Positions 1,632 to 9,063 are shown, counted from the first letter of the stretch. The stretch: DNA of 43,144 nucleotides from Vulcanimicrobiota bacterium (GCA_021107945.1 JAIORV010000082.1:1-43144); one strand, 5' to 3'. Numbers and translations: made by a program. The notes: generated by a model from the letters alone, not told the origin.

Positions 1632-1976
1632 TTACTTCACCGGCGAAAAGACCCAGCCGAAGATGTCCTCTCCTGCCATTACGCGGAAATTCTCCCACGA
1701 AGCTTTTACCCTGTCGCCGACGGAAACATCAGGAGTCGTTATTCGTCCCATTGCCTTGATCCCGTTATCGAACCTGATAATGCCGAAGGTAAGGAATCTG
1801 TCGTCGATTCCCCAGGGGAGCTGAAGCAATTGGGAGAATGTCAGAATCTCGCCCTCGTCAGTGAACGGCACTTCCTCAAATTCCGTGCTCTTACACTGAA
1901 GGCAACGCACTCGCCGGGGATATGTCAATCTCCCACATTCCTTACACTTGAACGCCTTTTTATTCTTGATATTCAT
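1632..1976 (-). CDS. Zn-ribbon/OB-fold (DUF35) acyl-CoA-binding partner protein
   Basis: This 114-residue protein matches the DUF35/OB-fold partner of thiolase-superfamily enzymes. The N-terminal rubredoxin-like zinc ribbon uses Cys11, Cys14, Cys25 and Cys28 (CKEC and CLQC). A compact OB-fold with VGDRVKAS near the C-terminus follows. In known complexes (archaeal thiolase/HMG-CoA synthase, bacterial steroid side-chain aldolases) this partner binds the CoA substrate and channels it to the catalytic subunit. The start at ATG 1976 is fixed by a GAGGAGGG site and by the ATGA overlap with the thiolase-like gene. A longer in-frame reading would run far into that gene and lacks a ribosome site. Translation is probably coupled to the upstream gene. 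Confidence 0.85.
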   Translation of the reverse strand: MNIKNKKAFKCKECGRLTYPRRVRCLQCKSTEFEEVPFTDEGEILTFSQLLQLPWGIDDRFLTFGIIRFDNGIKAMGRITTPDVSVGDRVKASWENFRVMAGEDIFGWVFSPVK

Positions 1977-3157
1977 GACTCCCTCCTCAGAACAAATGCT
2001 ACAACATTGTTGCCAAATCCGCCGAAGTTTACAGTGAGACCCACATCGTGATTCTCGACCTGTCTCGGTCCCGCTTCGCCTCGTAGTTGCCATGTGAGAT
2101 CAACTATCTGGGCAACCCCGGTCGCGCCGACAGGATGGCCTCTTGCCTTGAGTCCTCCCGACGGATTAATGGGCAGACTTCCCTTTATCTTCGTCTCGCC
2201 GGCTTCCAGGGCTTTCTTTGCTTCGCCTTTCGCGAATAGCCCGGCATGCTCGCTCTCGGCTATTTCAAGAATAGTAAACGCGTCGTGAAGCTCGGCAACC
2301 TGGATGTCCTTTGCGGTTATGCCGGCTCGTTTGTATGCTTGGTTACATGCCATTGTGACAGCTTTAAGGTCTGTGGGATCATCCCTCTCGGCGAGGGTAT
2401 GCGTATCAGTCGCCTGTCCGAATCCCGCCACCTTTATCAGAGGCTTTCCAAAATCCTTCACTCTGTCTGCCGGGCAAAGGATGACAGCCGCCGCACCATC
2501 GCTGACGGGACAGCAGTCAAAAAGCCTCAGGGGCTTTGCAACGTATGAGTTATTTACGATAGAATCCGGGGTTTCAATCATACCTTCCATCGAAATCTTC
2601 ATCTGGATATGGGCATAAGGATTCAAAATGCCGTTCTCCTGGTTCTTCATAGCAACCATCGCCAGATGCTCAGGTTTTATATCATACTTATCCATATAAA
2701 GTTTTGCGAACATTCCCGCCATTCCAGGCAGTGAAACGCCGTAAATATACTCGGCATACGGATGTGTCAGTGTCGCCACGAAATCGGTAGCACGCCATCC
2801 CGTAACATCTCTCATCTTTTCTCCACCGACTACCAGCACGAAATCATAATACCCGGACGCCACGGCGAGCACTCCATTTTTCACAGCGGATGCACCCGAC
2901 GCGGGACCGTTCTCGACGAGATCAGCAGCGGCGGGAAGAAGGGCGAGATTATCAACCAATGCACTTGCTATACCGGTCTGATGGTTCAATATTCCTCCAC
3001 CCATATTTGCAACATAAACCGCATCGATGAGCGTATCTCCTATTCCGGCATCTTCCATAGCCCGCAATGAGGCTGAACTGAGAAGATCCAGAAGATCGTT
3101 TTCATCAAGCCTTCCAAAGGGCGTCATTCCAACTCCAAGAATTGCAACATCTCTCAT
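1973..3157 (-). CDS. Thiolase-like protein lacking the catalytic cysteines
   Basis: This 394-residue protein has the full SCP2/thiolase-type double fold. It has the GVGMTPFGR start, the NPSGGLKARGHPVGATG segment with His341, and a glycine-rich C-terminal loop. The usual acylated cysteine (E-x-C-A-S-G) is replaced by proline 85 (ENGPASGAS). The second catalytic cysteine in the final loop is replaced by Asn377 (VNFGGFGNN). Ordinary Claisen thiolysis or condensation is therefore unlikely. Cys-less members that pair with DUF35 proteins include the Ltp2-type retro-aldolases of steroid side-chain breakdown, so aldol chemistry on an acyl-CoA is my best inference. The start at ATG 3157 is set by an ATGA overlap with the gene before it. 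Confidence 0.8.
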   Translation of the reverse strand: MRDVAILGVGMTPFGRLDENDLLDLLSSASLRAMEDAGIGDTLIDAVYVANMGGGILNHQTGIASALVDNLALLPAAADLVENGPASGASAVKNGVLAVASGYYDFVLVVGGEKMRDVTGWRATDFVATLTHPYAEYIYGVSLPGMAGMFAKLYMDKYDIKPEHLAMVAMKNQENGILNPYAHIQMKISMEGMIETPDSIVNNSYVAKPLRLFDCCPVSDGAAAVILCPADRVKDFGKPLIKVAGFGQATDTHTLAERDDPTDLKAVTMACNQAYKRAGITAKDIQVAELHDAFTILEIAESEHAGLFAKGEAKKALEAGETKIKGSLPINPSGGLKARGHPVGATGVAQIVDLTWQLRGEAGPRQVENHDVGLTVNFGGFGNNVVAFVLRRES

Positions 3158-3849
3158 ATTTTCCACGCCCCCTTTGCTCCACAAATTTGCTCTGTTATTG
3201 TTTTCTCATCAGCAATAATTATCTCTTTCTTTGCATGCTCCAGTAATTCCGGGGGACAAGGACGTGAGCCGCAAACAAGGCGGGGTTTGTTTTTATAGTA
3301 AAGCTCCCGGGTCAACTTGAATGATTCCGCTCCGCCCAGCTCGTGCTGAACGCCTTCCTGTTTAATCAGGCTATATTCAATCATCCATCTTCTGAACCCG
3401 AGGGGGCTTTCCGCTGTAATCCACACCTCATGCTGATTCAGATGTTCGATATGATGCTCCATTTTTGAGGCGAACAGATGCGCTCCAATGCGCAATCCTC
3501 TTTCAATCGCCAGCGTATGAAGGCTGATACCGATTTTTTTCGACAACATTCTGCCGTTAACCGCTCCCACAAGAACACCGTCAATCTGTCCCACAAGACA
3601 GTATTCATTTCTAACTCTGTGTTTCATCCATCCAAGAAGCTCGGCGTAAAGCCTTGCTCCCACGACATCGTAAAAATCTCTTTCGATTTTAATCGTGGGT
3701 TTTATTGCCTTCAGTAGAACAGGCACTTCGCTTCTGTCTATTGGACGCACAACCATTTTGTTTCCCGTGGCCAGTGTAATTACCTTTGGCGGATAAGGGT
3801 TCATAGGTAATTCCGGCGGTCTGAGAATTTGTTCTAACTCCATGTCCAT
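3154..3849 (-). CDS. GNAT-fold acyltransferase-like protein
   Basis: This 231-residue protein contains a GNAT-like core from about residue 28 to 170. It opens with a VRPIDRSEVPVLLKAI strand-helix, continues with a VGAVNGRML beta-hairpin, and has LAIERGLRIGAHLFASKMEHH in the position of the acyl-CoA-binding loop and helix. A basic and acidic tail of about 60 residues follows. The canonical Q/R-x-x-G-x-G/A loop is only loosely kept, so activity is uncertain. The gene lies 28 bases after uridine phosphorylase and its stop overlaps the start of the thiolase-like gene (ATGA). A working link to the acyl-CoA chemistry of the next two proteins is therefore likely but inferred. AAAGGAGG lies about 11 bases before ATG 3849. 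Confidence 0.65.
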   Translation of the reverse strand: MDMELEQILRPPELPMNPYPPKVITLATGNKMVVRPIDRSEVPVLLKAIKPTIKIERDFYDVVGARLYAELLGWMKHRVRNEYCLVGQIDGVLVGAVNGRMLSKKIGISLHTLAIERGLRIGAHLFASKMEHHIEHLNQHEVWITAESPLGFRRWMIEYSLIKQEGVQHELGGAESFKLTRELYYKNKPRLVCGSRPCPPELLEHAKKEIIIADEKTITEQICGAKGAWKI

Positions 3850-3877
3850 ATTCCAATATTCCTCCTTTACCCGTTAA

Positions 3878-4657
3878 TTATTTTGAATCCCACTTATGTA
3901 ATATTCTAACTGCTTCAATGGCCGCTTTTATAGCCTCTTCAACTCCCACTTTTTTCACAATGGGGGTATTGTCATAAGTGAGGCCTATAATCGCCGTAAT
4001 CTCGCCGACACGCACTCCCCTGATAGTTCCTATTGTAAAGAGTGCCGATGACTCCATCGATGTCGCCTTTACATTTGCTTTTATCCAGGTCTCCCAGAGA
4101 TCGAGATTATGTTTAGCCTGGGGAATCATATCCGATTCCTCGATATAGAAAGCGTCCTTACAATGCATGATTCCGCAATGATAGCGCAGGTCAAGATTTT
4201 TGCAGGCTTCCCGCAACGCAAGGCAGACATCCATATCGCTGACTGCAGGGTATGACAGGGGAACATATTGTCTCGATGTTCCCTCTTCTCGAACCGCTCC
4301 GGTTGAAATGACAACATCTCCGAGCTTTACTTCCCGAAGAAGCGATCCTGCGGTTCCGACACGGATGAATGTATCGGCTCCAACGCGGATCAATTCCTCC
4401 AGGGCGATGGCGGCGGAAGGACAACCTATTCCCGTTGATGTTGATGATATTTTTATCCCGTCAACATAACCGGTATATGTCGTATATTCCCTATTTTCCG
4501 CTACTTTTTCCGCATTGTCGAAATATTGTGCAATTTTCGAAACCCTCCCCGGATCCCCCGGGAGAAGAACATATCGCCCCACGTCTCCCTTTTTCAGGCC
4601 GATATGATATTGAGTTTCCAAATCCTTGATCTCGGTATGGGCATGTTCCACAATCAT
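3878..4657 (-). CDS. udp: Uridine phosphorylase-family nucleoside phosphorylase
   Basis: This 259-residue protein is a full-length NP-I family nucleoside phosphorylase. It cleaves a nucleoside with phosphate to the free base and ribose-1-phosphate. Visible marks are the phosphate-binding LLPGDPGRV near residue 32, STGIGCPSAAIALEEL near 73, the RVGTAGSL phosphate loop near 97, and the MESSALF ribose-binding motif near 200. The pattern fits uridine phosphorylase better than the purine enzymes. The start at ATG 4657 follows an AAGGAGGA site. It is the first gene of an apparent operon with the GNAT-like, thiolase-like and DUF35 genes. No nucleoside-linked role for those three is obvious, so shared transcription may be fortuitous. 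Confidence 0.85.
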   Translation of the reverse strand: MIVEHAHTEIKDLETQYHIGLKKGDVGRYVLLPGDPGRVSKIAQYFDNAEKVAENREYTTYTGYVDGIKISSTSTGIGCPSAAIALEELIRVGADTFIRVGTAGSLLREVKLGDVVISTGAVREEGTSRQYVPLSYPAVSDMDVCLALREACKNLDLRYHCGIMHCKDAFYIEESDMIPQAKHNLDLWETWIKANVKATSMESSALFTIGTIRGVRVGEITAIIGLTYDNTPIVKKVGVEEAIKAAIEAVRILHKWDSK

Positions 4658-5353
4658 TCCTCCTTATGTTATTATATTTTTTAAGCTGTTTCCAATGAGT
4701 CCTTTTTAATTATATGAAAGCTTAATTACCCCAAAGAATAAGGTCTGATTAGATGCGAAATTTTATCTTCCAGGACTCAAAAAATTAATAAAGGCGGGCA
4801 TGAGAATTTCTATAAGTTTTATCTATATTCCTGCAATTAGATCCCGGACTTCGCGATTATCCCGGAAAAATGAAACTAATCTTTATATACATCTATTTAA
4901 TTAATGGTGATTTTCTGATAAACCGCAAAGAAGCAAAGGGCGCAAAGATTCCCGTAAAGAAATTTTACAAACTATTCAGACCTTTCACTGTAGGAGAGGC
5001 TTCCAGCCTCGATTTTAGAGCATTCCAGGATCGTTTCAGGGACCACAAAGAGATTCGGAAAACGGATAAAGCAGCCCGAATCTGTAGGAGGGATGTCCTC
5101 ATCCCGATAAACGGATAGTACTTTTTTTGTATGTTTTTTTATAACTATTCACCGCAGAGTTCGCAGAGGACTCAGAGTGTCTGTTTAGTTTTTACCTCCG
5201 TTCCTTCGTGCTCCCCGCGTTCTTTATGGTTGAGAATTAGAAGAACAAATGAAAAAAAATGCAAACATAAGGATTTGAGCAGTGGAGAAATAAATTGACG
5301 GCATTGAGAGATTTGTTTAATAGCAACCATTGAGGACACAGAGAATTCTCTAA
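4658..5353. other. Gene-less stretch rich in interspersed repeats
   Basis: No gene is supported; the open frame at 4870-5118 is made of repeat sequence. I see an AACTATTCAGACC element with an inverted AGGCTTCCAGCCT core (about 4970-5015). A second palindrome, TGTAGGAGGGATGTCC..., covers 5083-5114 and recurs inverted near 33678 and 35883. A TAACTATTCACCGCAGAG element begins at 5142. CACAGAG-type repeats run from 5333 into the tRNA-Phe array. Confidence 0.7.
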
Positions 5354-5439
5354 TTTATCTCTGTGTTCTCTGTGGTAAAAAAATATAAGGGCTGAACAGT
5401 AACCATTTTTTTTTTCTCTCTTTTTTGGGAACCAAAATA

Positions 5440-5494
<55 letters not shown>

Positions 5495-5580
5495 TTTATC
5501 TCTGTGTTCTCTGTGGTAAAAAAATATAAGGGCTGAACAGTAACCATTTTTTTTTTCTCTCTTTTTTGGGAACCAAAATA

Positions 5581-5635
<55 letters not shown>

Positions 5636-5721
5636 TTTATCTCTGTGTTCTCTGTGGTAAAAAAATATAAGGGCTGAACAGTAACCATTTTTTTTTTCTC
5701 TCTTTTTTGGGAACCAAAATA

Positions 5722-5795
<74 letters not shown>

Positions 5796-8205: not shown

Positions 8206-8985
8206 TTACATCATGGAACTCATGCCGAATGATGCGCCCATAAACATTCTGCCACCACGGCTCGGGCCACATTGCTGTCCCTGCTGTCCCTGCATGCCCT
8301 GCTGTCCCTGCTGTCCCTGCTGTCCCTGCATCATCCTCATCATCATCATCATCATCATCATCATTTTCATCATCATCTGCTGCATCATGCCGCCGCCCTG
8401 TTGCCCTTGCTGCATTCCTTGCTGCATTCCTTGCTGCCCCTGGTATCCCTGGTATCCCTGATTCATTCCTTGCATTCCGGGCATCATTCCGGGCATCATT
8501 CCTTGCATTCCGGGCATCATTCCTTGCATTCCGGGCATCATTCCGCCCATCATTCCGCCCATCGCTCCAGCCATAGGCATTCCCATATTGCCCATCATGC
8601 CATTCTGCATTCCACCCATTTGACCGGCAAATTTGGCTCTCATGTTCCTGCCATGGAAGTGAGCTCCGATTTTGCCACCGATGCTGCCTCCTATGCTCAT
8701 TCCAAGTCCACCACCAATCAGTGCGCCGATAGGGCCACCGACTGTGAATCCGAGAAGACCTCCGCCGAGAGCACCGGTGATTCCTCCACCGACTGACATA
8801 GCCGTTGGGCTGCCAAGGACTTTACCGGCTACTTTACCGGCTACTGCACCAACACCGAGACCAACCGCGGCACCAATAGGCCCACCTACTGTGAATCCAA
8901 CGATTCCTCCGACTATTCCTCCTGCTCCTACTGCTCTGGCTACTCCTCTGATGGCGTTACCTATTCCTCTTACAATTCTTCCCAT
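8206..8985 (-). CDS. Glycine-zipper protein with Met/Gln-rich tail
   Basis: This 259-residue protein is of strongly biased composition. Residues 1-110 carry two copies of a GFTVGGPIGA-type glycine-zipper block, the kind that packs membrane or amyloid-like helices. Residues 120-180 are repeats of M-P-G-M-Q-G. A Q/G-rich block and a run of about sixteen residues that is almost all Met follow (from a CAT trinucleotide run at 8338-8364 on the plus strand), then more G-Q-Q repeats. ATG 8985 is the start because AAGGAGGG lies eight bases before it; an upstream in-frame extension has no such site. The complementary strand is also open for long stretches but is only a shadow. The function is unknown; a pore, membrane-anchor or metal-binding role would be a guess. 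Confidence 0.7.
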   Translation of the reverse strand: MGRIVRGIGNAIRGVARAVGAGGIVGGIVGFTVGGPIGAAVGLGVGAVAGKVAGKVLGSPTAMSVGGGITGALGGGLLGFTVGGPIGALIGGGLGMSIGGSIGGKIGAHFHGRNMRAKFAGQMGGMQNGMMGNMGMPMAGAMGGMMGGMMPGMQGMMPGMQGMMPGMMPGMQGMNQGYQGYQGQQGMQQGMQQGQQGGGMMQQMMMKMMMMMMMMMRMMQGQQGQQGQQGMQGQQGQQCGPSRGGRMFMGASFGMSSMM

Positions 8986-9032
8986 TATATATACCCTCCT
9001 TATTTTTAAAGTCTTACGACCTGTCTTCGATA

Positions 9033-9063
9033 TGTATATCACTGCATGACCTAATTTTGTCAA
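9033..9063 (-). promoter_or_regulatory. Candidate promoter of the glycine-zipper gene
   Basis: On the minus strand, TTGACA (9063-9058) is followed after 19 bases by TATACA (9038-9033), about 48 bases before the start codon. The spacer is longer than the 17-base ideal. An alternative -10 two bases earlier would restore the spacing but fits less well. Confidence 0.45.

Follow-up and report, generated by a model that had tools for sequence, protein, structure and literature searches.

A thiolase-fold protein without catalytic cysteines and its DUF35 and GNAT-like partners: a conserved gene trio with a possible role in nucleobase catabolism

What can a thiolase-fold protein do when both of its catalytic cysteines have been lost, and why does its gene overlap those of a DUF35 protein and a GNAT-like protein? 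The question is raised by three genes, here called the trio, in a 43,144-nucleotide stretch of DNA from a Vulcanimicrobiota bacterium (GCA_021107945.1 JAIORV010000082.1:1-43144; this whole stretch is referred to as the window). An earlier note on this DNA had described the thiolase-fold gene as joined to its two partners by ATGA overlaps, and both overlaps were seen in the sequence (Table 1). A uridine phosphorylase-like gene lies directly upstream of the GNAT gene with a gap of 28 bp, and the four genes, which run in the same direction in the order uridine phosphorylase-like, GNAT, thiolase-fold and DUF35, are probably part of one operon. The start codon of the DUF35 gene was placed at position 1976, a longer ORF from 2093 not being the true start.

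Table 1. Positions in the window of the trio genes, their overlaps and the residues discussed
Feature	Positions	Strand	Basis or remark
Uridine phosphorylase-like gene	3878-4657	minus	TIGR01718 282.5 bits, cutoff 280.3
GNAT-fold subunit gene, 231 aa	3154-3849	minus	
RGLRIGA, altered GNAT pyrophosphate-binding loop	3481-3501	minus	alignment of 57 trio GNATs
ATGA overlap GNAT/thiolase	3154-3157	minus	sequence; TCAT on plus strand
Thiolase-fold subunit gene, 394 aa	1973-3157	minus	both catalytic cysteines lost
Pro85 codon CCC, nucleophilic Cys position	2903-2905	minus	alignment
His291-Asp292-Ala293 of HDAF	2279-2287	minus	alignment; motif role from PMC12329534
His341 of GHPVGATG	2135-2137	minus	alignment
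ATGA overlap thiolase/DUF35	1973-1976	minus	sequence; TCAT on plus strand
DUF35 subunit gene (zinc ribbon + OB fold, CoA-binding type), 114 aa	1632-1976	minus	

The thiolase-fold subunit matches Pfam Thiolase_N/C_1 and NCBIfam PRK06064 (427 bits, cutoff 420), and the best Foldseek neighbour of its AF2 model (pLDDT 91.4) is 6et9, with a TM of 0.94 and 39% identity over the Foldseek alignment. A thiolase fold and sequence similarity to the SCP2/archaeal-type thiolases were found through Pfam, NCBIfam, AF2 and Foldseek. The DUF35 subunit contains a canonical C-x2-C-x10-C-x2-C zinc ribbon and scores 25.7 bits against zf-ChsH2 (cutoff 23.2) and 24.7 bits against OB_ChsH2_C, just under the cutoff of 27.1. 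The third subunit was found to be weakly related to the GNAT family by sequence (Pfam, 14.3 bits vs a cutoff of 20.7), and a PDB sequence search with it gave no match; a viral structure library searched with its model likewise yielded nothing of use. Its AF2 model (mean pLDDT 88.7) matched solved GNATs in a Foldseek search of the PDB, with a best E of 2e-7 and a TM of about 0.5 by query length, and a GNAT fold is supported by this predicted structure. The pairing of a Cys-less thiolase-fold gene with DUF35 and GNAT-like genes, as claimed in the earlier note, is borne out by Pfam, AF2, Foldseek and the gene neighbourhood.

The pyrophosphate-binding loop of the GNAT-fold subunit departs from the consensus Q/RxxGxG/A in that Arg120 replaces the first glycine (RGLRxGA). 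R117, G118, R120 and G122 are invariant in 57 trio GNATs, and the loop of an archaeal member (locus L133) reads RGAQIGA. A search with the window GNAT alone found distant homologues elsewhere, among them stand-alone homologues without a thiolase in genomes G011 and G012, and the conserved polar residues D58, Y60, R66, N98, S109, H111, E147, R154, H169 and E170 are common to these and to the trio GNATs. The stand-alone homologue in G012 (locus L088, G012:C46, 8877-14409) lies near a cyclase gene, a cytosine deaminase-like gene and AllG, and the same stretch encodes a small protein that appears MoaD-like by eye.

Catalytic positions of the thiolase-fold subunit

The earlier note had read Pro85 as standing in place of the nucleophilic cysteine. 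Alignment confirmed this reading, as position 85 is proline in all 61 alignable trio members vs cysteine in all 18 outgroup thiolases, and the nucleophile motif is ENGPASG here vs E[NDA]ACAS[GSA] in relatives. An alternative cysteine near this position, which the note had named as able to overturn the reading, did not appear in the alignment. A sequencing or assembly error can be ruled out, since the proline is found in 61 sequences and its codon CCC is at least two base changes away from a cysteine codon.

The second catalytic cysteine of SCP2-type thiolases is located in the HDCF motif (PMC12329534). This motif reads HDAF here, and Ala293 occupies the cysteine position in 62/62 trio members. 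The note had assigned this position to Asn377 instead, which did not hold: an Asn stands here in 62/62 trio members, and 17/18 Cys-containing relatives have it as well, so that it is normal for the family and is not a lost cysteine. The Pyrococcus furiosus thiolase 7yvy also reads HDAF, yet its nucleophile is intact; of the two losses, therefore, that at position 85 alone is diagnostic, whereas Ala293 by itself is not.

His341 was retained as the note had stated. Both His291 (HDAF) and His341 (GHPVGATG) are invariant in 62/62 trio members, as is Asn331, and His341 is also kept in 18/18 Cys-type relatives. Because the acyl-accepting cysteine is absent, an acyl-enzyme would not be able to form at the position-85 site and, judged from the sequence, the complex should not be able to act as a thiolase. 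The two histidines and the fold could still allow stabilisation of a CoA-thioester enolate, which would fit either decarboxylation or C-C cleavage.

The note had compared the trio to the steroid side-chain aldolases Ltp2-ChsH2 and Sal-Shy, and a retro-aldolase of this type would split a beta-hydroxyacyl-CoA into acetyl-CoA and an aldehyde or ketone, with the GNAT-fold subunit acting on a product. These enzymes do combine a Cys-less thiolase fold with DUF35, which in the trio is an adjacent gene at 62/62 testable loci, and Foldseek matched Ltp2 (6ok1) with a TM of 0.84. We know of no GNAT associated with Ltp2-ChsH2 or Sal-Shy. The catalytic tyrosine of these aldolases lies in a YDHF or YDCY motif (PMC12329534); when it was looked for in the trio it was absent, its position being taken by His291, on which ground the Ltp2/Sal mechanism was rejected, and the catalytic Cys304 of Sal corresponds to Ala293. 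Among the neighbours that were annotated, no gene for a partner hydratase with a MaoC domain was recognised. In sequence and fold the subunit is much closer to archaeal thiolases and to ST0096, and the gene neighbourhood described below points to nucleobases and carbamoyl phosphate and not to steroids. The steroid analogy is thus unsupported, and we regard a retro-aldolase as very improbable.

Conservation and phylogeny of the trio

The thiolase was used as the query in a pattern-based scan of GTDB species genomes, and the best 80 loci, mostly from MAGs, were kept; the scan relies on exact peptide patterns, so that more divergent trios or relatives without a GNAT could be missed. The trio counts are based on the 63 of these loci with at least 55% identity, where the GNAT gene lies just upstream of the thiolase gene in 57/57 testable loci and the DUF35 gene just downstream in 62/62, the loci missing one or the other being contig ends. 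The pairwise divergences of the three subunits are congruent (Mantel r 0.93, 0.885 and 0.883; 0/2000 permutations). This conservation rules out chance gene neighbours, and relatives lacking both partners, which the note had regarded as counter-evidence, were not found at the testable loci. The trio is therefore kept as a unit, and the earlier proposal was apt in so far as it described an acyl-CoA enzyme of three subunits; the part which made it an aldolase of the Ltp2/Sal type failed at His291.

The records carrying the trio are named Eisenbacteria, Bipolaricaulota, Verrucomicrobia, Lentisphaerae, Sumerlaeota, Elusimicrobia, Actinomycetota, Chloroflexi, Zixibacteria, Riflebacteria and others, and one archaeal trio cluster was found (L133). 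Horizontal acquisition by the window's lineage is likely, because no close relative of the thiolase was found among 148 other genomes sampled from the window's own phylum. At the locus of the closest trio (L007, Anaerolineales, 1769-3971), methylmalonyl-CoA mutase-like and epimerase-like genes, recognised by eye, are located just upstream, with a CN-hydrolase gene (PF00795) near them.

In a maximum-likelihood tree all Cys-less sequences fall into one clade (bootstrap/SH-aLRT 100/100), which includes Sulfolobus tokodaii ST0096 (PDB 4yzo). The trio has Pro at the nucleophile position, where the ST0096 group has Ser or Thr and one sequence of the archaeal set has Ala. Within the Pro sub-clade (99/95), the bacterial trios are joined by two sequences of the archaeal phylum that was searched. 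One of these (L133) has the gene order cyclase-thiolase-DUF35-GNAT-AllH, with FdrA, AllG and a molybdenum hydroxylase divergent, and the other (L134) has a DUF35 gene and no GNAT within the 9.8 kb available at a contig end. The GNAT partner was observed only with the Pro sub-clade, and 16 genomes of Cys-type thiolases, a set containing no positive control, gave no match when searched for a GNAT. From the tree and this distribution, the cysteine appears to have been lost first, and the GNAT partnership to be tied to the Pro lineage. The ST0096 protein shares with the trio its clade, both histidines and a zinc-ribbon (DUF35-like) gene overlapping downstream, but has Ser at the nucleophile position, an HDM motif and no adjacent GNAT; the trio clade gives a context for this orphan structure. 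In the Ser/Thr-type clade of ST0096 (L113-L128), a DUF35-like zinc-ribbon gene is mostly the next gene downstream.

These relatives bear on a different division of labour, in which the thiolase-fold protein would be a dead CoA-binding scaffold, DUF35 a bridge, and the GNAT-fold protein responsible for all of the chemistry, either as an N-acyltransferase or as a decarboxylase modelled on malonyl-CoA decarboxylase or CurA. The loss of both catalytic cysteine positions is consistent with this, as are the many conserved polar GNAT residues common to the stand-alone homologues and the occurrence of the latter without a thiolase, in G012 beside cyclase, AllG and cytosine deaminase-like genes. However, the invariance of His291, His341, Asn331 and Asn377 in 62/62 members is stricter than a scaffold needs, and the ST0096-type Cys-less relatives keep the same histidines with a DUF35-like gene and without an adjacent GNAT. 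We consider a dead scaffold unlikely.

Gene neighbourhood

Genes surrounding the trio were clustered and then named by Pfam/NCBIfam. They include AllH (PF11392), FdrA/AllF and AllG (PF06545), together with a cyclase-family hydrolase (PF04199) and the three subunits that make up an XDH-like molybdenum hydroxylase. Ten-gene clusters with the order GNAT-THIO-DUF35-AllH-FdrA-AllG-cyclase-XdhB-XdhC-XdhA are found in Verrucomicrobia (L109) and Lentisphaerae (L110), and at least one AllFGH, cyclase or molybdenum hydroxylase gene lies within about 6 kb of the trio at 43 of the 63 loci. Also encoded in the archaeal cluster (L133) are a PnrA-like ABC transporter for nucleosides and a carbamate kinase that scores above the TIGR00746 cutoff. 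AllG is present in 41/50 trio genomes vs 9/146 other genomes of the window's phylum (Fisher p 1e-24, uncorrected for relatedness and with this one phylum as the background). An association of AllF/AllG/AllH with the trio was thus observed through linkage or co-occurrence. The window's own genome contains AllG, two cyclases (one of them very close, 516 bits) and four molybdenum hydroxylases, all unlinked to the trio, and the trio likewise stands apart from the other pathway genes in the Bipolaricaulota loci. XdhA matched several molybdenum hydroxylase families, all below cutoff, and the PF04199 cyclase can be described only as arylformamidase-like.

AllG/FdrA also occur without the trio (G005, G003 and G145), and a nitrilase-family amidase, which could carry out the last step there instead, is nearby in two of these genomes. 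A uridine phosphorylase gene directly adjoins the trio-less AllG/FdrA genes in G005 (L105) and G003 (L106), and in L105 the amidase gene is next to them. Cytosine deaminase-like genes adjoin AllG and the cyclase in G011 and G012. In the window's phylum, pyrimidines are pointed to by the uridine phosphorylase and cytosine deaminase-like neighbours.

In another reading the cluster would degrade purines or a further N-heterocycle, and the acid handled by the trio would then be some other one, such as an acyl group derived from oxamate or imidazole. Purine use is where XdhA-like subunits and PnrA-like transporters are typically met, and the known substrate of AllFGH is oxalurate formed from allantoin. 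Nitrifiers carry allFGHK together with bmpA-nupABC, which has been interpreted as serving the use of purine products (PMC12625717). The uridine phosphorylase and cytosine deaminase-like neighbours speak against a purine substrate, and a non-exhaustive examination of the neighbours revealed neither an allantoinase nor a uricase-type gene. Purines or another heterocycle are a doubtful choice in our judgement, and a role of the trio in an ATP-yielding pathway of nucleobase catabolism is fairly probable; whether uracil in particular is the nucleobase is evenly balanced.

Candidate pathway and reaction

Ureidomalonate is the next homologue of oxalurate, being one carbon longer. Oxidation of uracil yields barbiturate, the ring opening of barbiturate yields ureidomalonate, and the chemistry of AllFGH would convert the latter to malonamate and carbamoyl phosphate. 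In E. coli, oxalurate is split by AllFGH through phosphorolysis, which yields oxamate and carbamoyl phosphate (PMC11326118). From the gene context we infer a route in which the molybdenum hydroxylase would oxidise the nucleobase ring, the PF04199 hydrolase would open it to an N-carbamoyl amide, AllF/AllG/AllH would release carbamoyl phosphate, giving ATP via carbamate kinase, and the trio would make a CoA thioester from the short acid amide that is left. For uracil, the intermediates would be barbiturate, ureidomalonate, malonamate with carbamoyl phosphate, and malonyl-CoA, which would end as acetyl-CoA and CO2. The assignment of malonamate to acetyl-CoA as the step of the trio is a tentative and rather unlikely one.

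The known oxidative pyrimidine pathway consists of uracil dehydrogenase, barbiturase and ureidomalonase. A molybdenum hydroxylase and the opening of the barbiturate ring would be in common with the proposed route, whereas ureidomalonase would be replaced by AllFGH and the trio; no barbiturase-type gene was recognised in the non-exhaustive look at the trio neighbours. The oxalurate branch of AllFGH-AllK, in E. coli allantoin catabolism and in nitrifier clusters (PMC12625717), has the same carbamoyltransferase subunits, carbamate kinase and a bmpA-type transporter, but a thiolase is found in neither report, nor does the nitrifier report have an acetyltransferase or cyclase.

Amide thiolysis by CoA is uphill and must be coupled, and decarboxylating KS domains in which Cys is changed to Gln are a known parallel for a thiolase-fold site without its nucleophile. 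We infer that the three proteins would form one acyl-CoA enzyme complex, in which DUF35 would hold CoA between the subunits and the GNAT-fold subunit would shift the acyl group between the amide nitrogen and CoA. Enolate chemistry with His291, His341 and the oxyanion hole, without an acyl-enzyme, would be the part of the thiolase-fold subunit, which would pull the amide/thioester exchange forward by decarboxylation. A further Foldseek match, 5ab7, is TbSLP, a thiolase-fold protein of the Cys-less type crystallised with malonyl-CoA, and TbSLP decarboxylates malonyl-CoA very slowly (PMC12329534). In the thiolase/HMGCS and PhlACB complexes, a bridge between subunits is formed by DUF35 (PMC6392133).

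Those complexes also suggest the opposite direction, namely C-C bond formation by the trio in an aldol or Claisen condensation of an acyl-CoA enolate with an acceptor, in the manner of thiolase/HMGCS or PhlACB. The nearest fold is indeed the thiolase of the archaeal acetoacetyl-CoA thiolase/DUF35/HMG-CoA synthase complex (6esq, 6et9), which resembles the trio in thiolase fold and family, in its DUF35 partner and in having a third partner enzyme, which DUF35 bridges there (PMC6392133). However, a Cys nucleophile and HMGCS are found there vs Pro and a GNAT here, and the genetic context differs. The multicomponent acyltransferases PhlACB and MucABC likewise combine a thiolase-fold protein, DUF35 and a third subunit, but PhlC uses Cys88 and the third subunit is of the KASIII/HMGCS type. 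The trio has no such third subunit and no acyl-accepting cysteine, and its context is catabolic; condensation is improbable on these grounds.

The best overall explanation is that the trio is an acyl-CoA complex in the catabolism of nucleobases, most likely uracil, and we place the chances for and against it about level. Points that count against it are the sub-cutoff XdhA matches and the merely arylformamidase-like cyclase, the lack of linkage in the window's genome and in Bipolaricaulota, the genomes with AllG/FdrA and no trio, the atypical CoA loop of the GNAT and the uphill thiolysis. The wider proposal, which we hold as possible but below even, is that of an undescribed ATP-conserving oxidative pyrimidine pathway in many bacterial phyla and in archaea of the Thermoproteota group, whose last step, from acid amide to acyl-CoA, is carried out by a GNAT/Cys-free thiolase-fold/DUF35 enzyme. 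No report of the trio was found in the open-access literature searched, and we take it as a new form of the thiolase-fold/DUF35 multicomponent CoA enzymes, in a probably undescribed catabolic pathway. The known partners of thiolase-fold/DUF35 pairs are HMGCS, KASIII-type proteins and a hydratase. A GNAT partner, combined with a nucleophilic cysteine lost throughout the clade, would extend these by a new architecture and probably also by a new reaction. For AllFGH, the linkage to molybdenum hydroxylase, cyclase and carbamate kinase genes would imply a second function besides the breakdown of allantoin, and the linked genes would offer a route of ATP-yielding nucleobase use to many uncultured lineages.

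Elsewhere in the window, three tandem units of 141 bp each (5348-5776), 99% identical, carry part of a tRNA-Phe gene, and only the last of them reaches an intact tRNA-Phe (5721-5795). A low-complexity ORF at 8206-9063 is rich in Met, Gln and Gly and contains repeats that resemble glycine zippers, as well as many short tandem ones.
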